From positions 1 through 38,740 of the forward strand of contig JAGPKU010000016.1 in the NCBI GenBank assembly GCA_018053845.1: 38,740 nt of DNA, read 5' to 3'. Shown here piece by piece: positions 2,927-5,834 of the stretch. Every line of letters begins with the position of its first letter. The stretch's first letter is position 1. Source of the DNA: Syntrophobacterales bacterium. Its GTDB lineage: Bacteria; Desulfobacterota; Syntrophia; Syntrophales; UBA2192. The notes under the pieces were generated by a model. That model was given only the letters and a program-made list of their open reading frames with translations. It was not told where the DNA came from and made no database searches. A program made the position numbers and the translations under genes.

Positions 2927-3050
2927 GGGTTCCTCCTTCGGTTGTGTTGGGTTTGTTGGTTGCGGGTGAAGACAAGCCTGAAAAAAAGGGCAAAATCCCC
3001 CTGTTGTCCTCCCGACGGGAAAAGCGGGACCTTACGGCGCCCGCAGGGTC

Positions 3051-3536
3051 TCAGTTCTTCCGTTCCAGAGCGGCGATGCCCGTCCGGGCGACGTCGTCGA
3101 TTCCGAGGGGCTTCAGGGTCTCGAGGACCTTGTCGACCTCGGCCTTGCTCCCCCTGAACTCCAGGACGCAGTGGTCCGAGTTGAACGTGAGGATCTTGCA
3201 GTTGAGCTGGTTGATCCTCCGGATCAGCTCGTTCTTGTTGTCCGCCGTGAGGTTCATCCGGATCAGCGCCAGTTCCCGCTTGACCGTTTCCACGTCGGTG
3301 AGGTTCTCGACCTTGATGACGTCGATGAGACGGGCCAGCTGCGCCTCGATCTTCTGGATCGTCGCCTTCGTGCCGATCGTCGTGAGGATGATCTTGGAGA
3401 CATCGGGGTTGATCGTGACGTCCACGCAGAGCGTCTCGATGTTGTACCCCTTGCCGCCGAGGGTCCCCGCCACGCGGGCCAGCACGTCTGGCTTGTTGTT
3501 GACGAGAATGGAGATGACGTTTTCCTTCTTTTCCAT
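3051..3536 (-). CDS. ilvN: acetolactate synthase, small regulatory subunit
   Basis: Regulatory subunit of acetohydroxy-acid synthase; it raises catalytic activity and carries valine feedback inhibition. The 161 residues match the IlvN/IlvH family. The N-terminal ACT domain starts VISILVNNKPDVLARVAG and GYNIETLCVD, and a second ACT-like half follows. An upstream ATG in frame would add 57 residues, but that extension is low-complexity and covers intergenic repeat sequence. MEKKENV at 3536 is the start, with AAGG about ten bases upstream. It lies about 190 bases after ilvB, across an inverted heptamer array, and is presumably co-transcribed. Confidence 0.94.
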   Translation of the reverse strand: MEKKENVISILVNNKPDVLARVAGTLGGKGYNIETLCVDVTINPDVSKIILTTIGTKATIQKIEAQLARLIDVIKVENLTDVETVKRELALIRMNLTADNKNELIRRINQLNCKILTFNSDHCVLEFRGSKAEVDKVLETLKPLGIDDVARTGIAALERKN

Positions 3537-3628
3537 GATGCCGCGCCTTTCATTGCTTGTGATATTCGTCCGGCCGCGAGCTGTCGGCTTCGCATCGCCG
3601 GTCTGTCGCTTTTCGCTGCATTGGTTTC

Positions 3629-3710
3629 GGCAAATGGCTGATGGCGTATGGCGTAAGGGCAGGAACCCGGATTCGTTCCGCCTTGAGCCTTTAGCCTCAG
3701 GCCCCATGCC
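3629..3710 (-). repeat. inverted heptamer array between ilvB and ilvN
   Basis: GG(C/G) units begin at 3629, 3636, 3643, 3650 and 3657, and GCC units at 3680, 3687, 3694, 3701 and 3708: five plus five copies at exact 7-base steps, pointing at each other. The core (3661-3679), read on the minus strand, is GGAACGAATCCGGGTTCC. It nearly matches the core at 8672-8690. The array starts 13 bases after the ilvB stop. It would form a long hairpin inside the operon transcript; no coding sequence or T-tract is present. Confidence 0.75.
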
Positions 3711-3723
3711 AGCGCCTTCGGCG

Positions 3724-5436
<1,713 letters not shown>

Positions 5437-5474
5437 GGGACGACCTCCTCCGATCATGAAGAATAAGGATGGCA

Positions 5475-5508
5475 ACAAAAAAGCCGCGAACGTTCTTCCG
5501 TTGCGGCC
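5475..5508 (-). terminator. second (distal) leader terminator before ilvB
   Basis: On the minus strand GCCGCAACG, a six-base loop, then CGTTCGCGGC (one bulged C) is followed by TTTTTTGTT. Stem arms are 5499-5507 and 5483-5492. It lies just after the attenuator terminator and about 30 bases before the ilvB ribosome site. Its arms reuse the GCCGC/GCGGC sequence of the first hairpin, so it may back up the attenuator or offer another pairing. Confidence 0.7.
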
Positions 5509-5517
5509 TTTCGATAA

Positions 5518-5634
5518 GAAAAAGCCGCGGTCTCTCGGGGGCCGCGGCTCGTTTTGCTCTTTGCTTCCGTCAGAGAGTGCGAGCTGCGGTCCCCGCCTGT
5601 ACGATGACGACGACAACGACGACCAGGAAGCTCG
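5518..5634 (-). promoter_or_regulatory. ilv operon transcription attenuator
   Basis: Four segments on the minus strand can pair in exclusive ways. Segment 1 is 5621-5634 (CGAGCTTCCTGGTC). Segment 2 is 5580-5595 (CGGGGACCGCAGCTCG). Segment 3 is 5536-5551 (CGAGCCGCGGCCCCCG). Segment 4 is 5523-5530 (CCGCGGCT). The 1:2 pause hairpin pairs CGAGCT/AGCTCG and GGTC/GACC. The 2:3 antiterminator pairs 14 of 16 bases with two A-C mismatches. The 3:4 terminator is an 8-bp AGCCGCGG/CCGCGGCT stem followed by TTTTCTT. Segments 1 and 2 lie inside the leader peptide gene around its valine run, as in the classical ilvB and ilvGMEDA attenuators. All pairings were read by eye; no folding energy was computed. Confidence 0.9.
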
Positions 5635-5653
5635 AAATAATCTGACGGATCAT
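5570..5653 (-). CDS. valine-rich leader peptide of the ilv attenuator
   Basis: A 27-codon reading frame starts at the ATG at 5653 and ends in TGA at 5570-5572. The peptide begins MIRQIISSF and then has a Leu-Val6-Ile-Val run (residues 10-18), so most of its middle is branched-chain residues, with two more isoleucines at 5-6. GGAG lies about six bases upstream. It corresponds in role to the E. coli ivbL leader peptide: when charged Val-tRNA is scarce, a ribosome stalled in the run would cover segment 1 and allow the antiterminator, whereas one reaching the stop would cover segment 2 and allow termination. The peptide itself probably has no other function. Confidence 0.9.
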   Translation of the reverse strand: MIRQIISSFLVVVVVVIVQAGTAARTL

Positions 5654-5683
5654 GCGTTTTCTCCGACTGTAAAAACAAAGTCC

Positions 5684-5712
5684 CCTATGCAATAAAACCG
5701 TATCGTTGTCAA
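5684..5712 (-). promoter_or_regulatory. probable sigma-70 promoter of the ilv operon
   Basis: A perfect TTGACA (5707-5712) is followed, 17 bases later on the minus strand, by a weak -10 CATAGG (5684-5689). Transcription would start near 5677, giving a short untranslated stretch before the leader peptide ATG at 5653. The region is clearly more AT-rich than its surroundings. The -10 matches only three of six consensus bases, so the exact position is uncertain. Confidence 0.5.
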
Positions 5713-5834
5713 GTCTTTTTTCTTTTCCTGCCTTGTACCCCGGAAACCGGCCGAGCGATGGAAGAGGATTGTCACCCTCACTCCGGGCCTCTCCTCTCGA
5801 GCCGGAGGGAGATCGAGGAAAGGGTCTTTCTCTT

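Follow-up and report, generated by a model that had tools for sequence, protein, structure and literature searches.

The leader that precedes ilvB in the window (the whole 38,740-nucleotide stretch of DNA analysed here) is almost certainly a valine-responsive attenuator. It contains two terminators, T1 and T2, which probably act in series within a relay of six segments, where T2 is controlled through the pairing of segment 4 with segment 5 (4:5). The leader, its Val run, its pairing options, their conservation and the covariation within 4:5 emerge from the sequence and from its comparison with relatives. We also favor, a little less firmly, the idea that this leader belongs to an undescribed class of attenuators, widespread in Desulfobacterota and above all in the taxonomic class of the window, in which one ribosome throws two serial terminators via the 4:5 relay; such a class would serve the ilv, trp, aro, leu and Phe-leader operons as their standard amino-acid control, leader codons and segment sequences alone being swapped from one to the next. 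The kind of regulation, amino-acid attenuation, is ordinary; its architecture and breadth are apparently new.

The attenuator lies on the minus strand, 5' of ilvB, and the features of the locus are the following.

5684–5712, minus: promoter, TTGACA at 5712–5707, 17-nt spacer, weak -10 CATAGG at 5689–5684 (sequence; kept across the genus)
5661–5664 (5664–5661), minus: Shine-Dalgarno GGAG of the leader ORF (sequence)
5570–5653, minus: leader ORF, ATG to TGA, 27 codons, peptide MIRQIISSFLVVVVVVIVQAGTAARTL (sequence; equivalent leaders in relatives)
5641–5649, minus: 5' arm of the outer stem, TCCGTCAGA, codons 2–5 (RNAfold; compensated variants in relatives)
5566–5574, minus: 3' arm of the outer stem, TCTGACGGA, which includes the leader stop codon (RNAfold; relatives)
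5621–5634, minus: segment 1, CGAGCT at 5634–5629 and GGTC at 5624–5621 (sequence, RNAfold, compensated changes with segment 2)
5580–5594, minus: segment 2, GGGGACCGCAGCTCG (RNAfold, alignment)
5537–5551, minus: segment 3, CGAGCCGCGGCCCCC (RNAfold, alignment)
5519–5550, minus: terminator T1 (3:4), T run at 5523–5519 (RNAfold, alignment)
5519–5528, minus: segment 4 as used in 4:5, GCGGCTTTTT (RNAfold, RNAalifold)
5503–5512, minus: segment 5, GAAAGGCCGC, which pairs with 4 in the relay and with 6 in T2 (RNAfold, RNAalifold)
5477–5511, minus: terminator T2 (5:6), AAAGGCCGCAACG-loop-CGTTCGCGGCTTTTTT, T run at 5482–5477 (terminator scan, RNAfold, alignment)
5444–5451, minus: ilvB Shine-Dalgarno, GGAGGAGG (sequence)
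3724–5436, minus: ilvB, acetolactate synthase large subunit
3051–3707, minus: ilvN, acetolactate synthase small subunit (extent of the ORF; the true start may be further in)
1883–2926, minus: ilvC, ketol-acid reductoisomerase
36–1700, minus: ilvD, dihydroxy-acid dehydratase

The six Val codons are codons 11–16 of the leader (5623–5606), with Leu before the run and Ile-Val after it. The promoter, whose -10 is CATAAG in the sister species, was missed by a strict consensus promoter scan. Between the upstream penicillin-binding-protein gene and this promoter lies a 56-nt dispersed intergenic repeat (window 5760–5815), which matches another contig at 80% (G000:C20:36346–36401). A weak terminator-like hairpin is also seen between ilvN and ilvC (window 2986–3002, minus), at chance level there.

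When the full leader is folded with RNAfold, it forms 1:2 (CGAGCT with AGCTCG, GGTC with GACC), 3:4 and 5:6. The leader fold with 1:2 and 3:4 has an energy of -56.7 kcal/mol (z -3.0), and one of 200 dinucleotide shuffles is equally good. When segment 1 is removed to mimic a stalled ribosome, 2:3 (14 pairs) and 4:5 form, and T2 is dismantled. A preliminary description of this DNA had proposed a Val-type ribosome-mediated attenuator before ilvB, and the leader, the Val run and the 1:2, 2:3 and 3:4 pairings are all confirmed by the sequence and by the folding of both leader states. It had considered this attenuator complete, while T2, segments 5 and 6 and the 9-bp outer stem (TCCGTCAGA/TCTGACGGA) had been missed; the enterobacterial mechanism that it called classical has to give way, since the leader has two consecutive terminators and, probably, a six-segment relay instead of a four-segment switch.

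T2 is located about 10 nt downstream of T1 and about 40 nt upstream of the ilvB start, and segment 4 (5528–5519) is complementary to its 5' arm (5512–5503) over 10 bp. The distance between T2 and ilvB leaves no space for a promoter, so that expression of ilvB requires that T2 be overcome; a second promoter downstream of T2 is ruled out in the window for the same reason. That T2 is the terminator of an upstream gene is also ruled out, since it sits between the leader and ilvB. In the Smithella relatives the gap between T2 and ilvB is often 90–260 nt, and there may be a second promoter there.

In the mechanism that we propose, the signal sensed would be the supply of valine, and that of the neighboring leucine and isoleucine. 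When Val-tRNA is short, the ribosome would stall on the Val run and cover segment 1; 2:3 would then pair and leave segment 4 free, and free segment 4 would take segment 5 as it emerges, before segment 6 is made. With 2:3 and 4:5 formed, neither T1 nor T2 would be present and ilvB would be transcribed; from the order and strand of the genes, it is plausible that one transcript continues through ilvC and ilvD. Unimpeded translation would result in 1:2, 3:4 and 5:6, and in termination twice, and the absence of translation would result in the outer stem plus 1:2, with double termination likewise. We infer that the ribosome would indeed stall, that transcription would terminate at each of the two sites and that 4:5 would beat 5:6 in the cell.

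The closest named relatives are Smithella and Syntrophus, along with unnamed Deltaproteobacteria MAGs, which agrees with the deltaproteobacterial look of the host in the preliminary description. The leader, the Val run, the segments and the promoter are kept in five other species of the genus, and also in related families, which goes beyond chance, so that the leader frame and the Val run whose presence in related genomes had been predicted are retained. We gathered loci using the IlvB protein as a query and took the upstream regions across the order; T1 and T2 are both present in all 63 genomes that have this type of leader before the query ilvB. The alignment consists of 59 leaders from six families (f1, f4, f5, f6, f12 and f21). 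The compensatory changes that had been expected in the arms are found: in 3:4, columns 98–116 exchange G-C (44 sequences) for A-U (4 sequences), and 2:3 varies between UG, UA and CG. Segment 1 covaries with segment 2 between families, and the outer stem occurs in the compensated variants CCATCAGA, CCATCACA and CCATCAAA.

Regarding 4:5, RNAalifold applied to the 59 relatives, with no structure supplied, returns 2:3 and 4:5. Since GCCGC/GCGGC is nearly invariant in both T1 and T2, most of the 4:5 pairs yield no covariation. The pair 125–143, which is exclusive to 4:5, is T-A or T.G in f1, f4, f5, f6 and f21, with one T-T exception, and mainly G-C in f12, and 20 sequences are altered on both sides; in 37 of the 59 leaders, column 143 does not pair with its partner in 5:6. 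Over equal lengths, 95.2% of the cells are paired in 4:5, versus 90.8% in 5:6. Exceptions are a C-A mismatch in 4:5 in L260 and one mismatch each in L162 and L268.

Another reading is that only one of the two hairpins terminates, the other being a pause, mRNA-stability or processing element. The U-tract of T1 is broken by a G in f12 (TTTGTTG), which may weaken T1 there, but T runs follow both hairpins in nearly all members, and we regard this reading as improbable. A few ilv-class members apparently lack T2: L019/L267 (G149; T1 only, from separate searches) and L283 (G118). These are natural comparisons for basal expression.

The equilibrium between 4:5 and 5:6 is balanced. At full length, the mean energies over the 59 sequences are -17.6 kcal/mol for 4:5 and -18.7 kcal/mol for 5:6, and the mean barrier between the two is 8.5 kcal/mol (findpath). 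The ON state is better than the mixed one in only 24 of the 59 sequences, 5:6 being often at least as stable as 4:5, so that no thermodynamic preference for 4:5 was found. It is important to note that, as a consequence, the argument for the relay is kinetic and hinges on which helix forms first. With 2:3 formed and before segment 6 exists, the predicted probability of 4:5 is about 1 in all 59 sequences; that 4:5 forms before 5:6 would be the main step of the relay.

The similar stability of 5:6 and 4:5 is also what would be expected if the leader were a classical four-segment Val attenuator with a leaky fail-safe terminator behind it that is not regulated; 4:5 would then be a by-product of the locally common GCCGC..GCGGCTTT being present in both terminators, or of one terminator having arisen by duplication of the other. 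A strong terminator would then stand constantly before ilvB. The outer stem of T2 (GCCGC/GCGG) is invariant in the 59 aligned leaders while its inner stem drifts, and positions that serve only 4:5 covary, even at the expense of 5:6; both observations are against such a fail-safe.

To assess the bearing of helix length on this question, we anchored 165 distinct tandem elements at CGGC/GCCG. Of these native elements, 97% have an uninterrupted 4:5 helix of 7 bp or more and 92% one of 8 bp, and the two shortest helices look mis-anchored; without anchoring, the figures are 94% (7 bp) and 82% (8 bp). Among random pairs of terminators from a sister genome, 31% reach 7 bp of complementarity and 20% reach 8 bp, a background that speaks for a by-product, and the comparison with the anchored elements flatters the latter since anchoring hands over four pairs. 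In 400 kb of the sister genome, 52 strong terminators include one tandem pair, which has no complementarity.

Position -1 is GC in 103 elements and AT in 46, and is paired in 98%, versus 81% after shuffling and 97% after shuffling within classes. At position +4 the paired share is 82%, versus 62% and 64%, respectively, and none of 1000 shuffles is as high; these shuffles ignore relatedness, so that the significance is overstated, and the change at +4 may be a single event between families. Chimeras in which the terminators are swapped between classes retain much of the pairing, as a by-product would, with a modest drop. The drop is small because GCGG/CCGC and ACGG/CCGT interconvert via G.U, so this control is not decisive for the specificity of 4:5. 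Taken with the covariation, these results make the fail-safe reading unlikely in our view, and we retain the relay.

The covariance model of the ilv element matches 144 of the 155 genomes of the window's class. In other families the element is found 5' of a different ilvB paralogue, some 2.5 kb upstream of the ilvB that the query retrieved, and the latter often has a distinct, Ile-rich leader with a single terminator. These leaders represent a second attenuator type, present in such families of the order (L154–L188, 5' of ilvB, e.g. in G028, G085 and G110), with peptides such as IIIIIGIIIP and one terminator, CCGTTACC..GGTAACGGTTTTT. Some Desulfobacterales have comparable leaders with a single terminator (L025, L033, L044, L052 and L053).

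At the weaker matches to the ilv model, this tandem design recurs on other operons. Trp leaders (..NWWWW..) with tandem terminators precede trpE, and Phe leaders with tandem terminators (L319–L348) precede a gene for a periplasmic binding protein, of the Peripla_BP_6 type in L319, or for an AMP-binding enzyme, as in L322; the targets of the Phe leaders look like uptake or catabolic genes under amino-acid attenuation. Models built from the Trp- and Phe-leader elements match 144 and 136 of the 154 genomes of the order, respectively (E up to 1e-4), counts that partly include members of other element classes. The genome of the window itself carries both kinds, with a trp element on contig 46 (L364) and a Phe-leader element on contig 145 (L365).

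Two further observations concern these elements. In the window's own genome, L285 (G000 contig 21, 6351–6494, minus) has a Trp leader (..FLGWWWSD..) and two terminators, with a weaker fit; it precedes a protein with a Phenol_MetA_deg domain. The Phe model (R3) also finds longer elements, of about 170–188 nt and 45–70 bits (e.g. G126:C61:48422–48609), several of which are about 7–10 kb from a trp element; one that we read (L383 group) has an aromatic-rich leader, NLFWFYYFYASVCP.

In a sample of the phylum, 45 of 395 genomes match the ilv model, and about 30 of these lie outside the order. Most of the loci that we read there have one of the following: a Trp leader followed by trpE or a DAHP-synthase-type gene, a leader rich in Phe, Tyr and Trp followed by DAHP synthase or by an aldolase of the DeoC family (taken for the ADH-synthase type), a Leu leader followed by leuA, or a branched-chain leader followed by ilvB; reading of L382 gave no convincing leader. 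The codons of the leaders fit the downstream pathway, a fit that the ilv model did not impose, and this is independent support.

The recurrence of pathway-matched leader codons (Val, Trp, Phe/Tyr, Leu) also speaks against a leader that senses its signal without a ribosome, that is, a T-box, a riboswitch or a protein-binding leader. At the gathering score, Rfam has no family match for the window or for 16 related loci, and a relaxed search gave sub-threshold matches only. We found no point in support of such a leader and give it next to no credence.

If the conserved two-terminator relay is true, RNA alone could provide both very low basal expression and full induction. This is a concrete regulatory prediction for amino-acid operons in hard-to-culture syntrophic bacteria; the design is compact and lends itself to tests with E. 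coli reporters, and it points to a set of RNA families still absent from Rfam.

Attenuation is a textbook mechanism, commonly drawn with one terminator. The window has the general features of ribosome-mediated attenuators: a short leader ORF with its ribosome-binding site, successive codons for the operon's end product, 1:2, 2:3 and 3:4 pairings that exclude one another, and a terminator with a U-tract. The enterobacterial ilvBN, ilvGMEDA and trp attenuators have one terminator. The window is like them in the regulatory codon run of the leader peptide, in 1:2, 2:3 and 3:4, and in the presence of a terminator before the first gene; it differs in having segments 5 and 6, the 4:5 link and two terminators, as do the 63 genomes mentioned above. 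Our search found no description of a leader-peptide relay with two terminators, but it was conducted largely without subscription papers, including older surveys of proteobacterial attenuators, so that an earlier description is possible.

The ilvBNC attenuator of Corynebacterium also has an ilvB leader peptide with Val and Leu codons, and three hairpins (anti-antiterminator, antiterminator and terminator), of which one is a terminator; unlike the window, it is without a second one (PMC11857589). The window is not alone in having two terminators in a leader: the gammaproteobacterial rimP leader has two in tandem, the upstream of which may have an antiterminator; that leader concerns another gene, has no amino-acid leader peptide and, in the passage that describes it, is given no link of the 4:5 type (PMC2965389).

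The closest known design is the enterobacterial his attenuator. Its segments, A to F, pair in alternative ways. The window resembles it in its chain of alternative hairpins, six segments that form three hairpins in the off state and two in the on state. In the his leader an extra hairpin before the terminator has been proposed to reduce basal read-through (PMC1183508). Besides the difference in amino acids and taxa, only the last hairpin of his terminates, whereas 3:4 and 5:6 of the window both have U-tracts: the middle hairpin of the window is a terminator as well, and for this reason we rejected filing the element as his-type.
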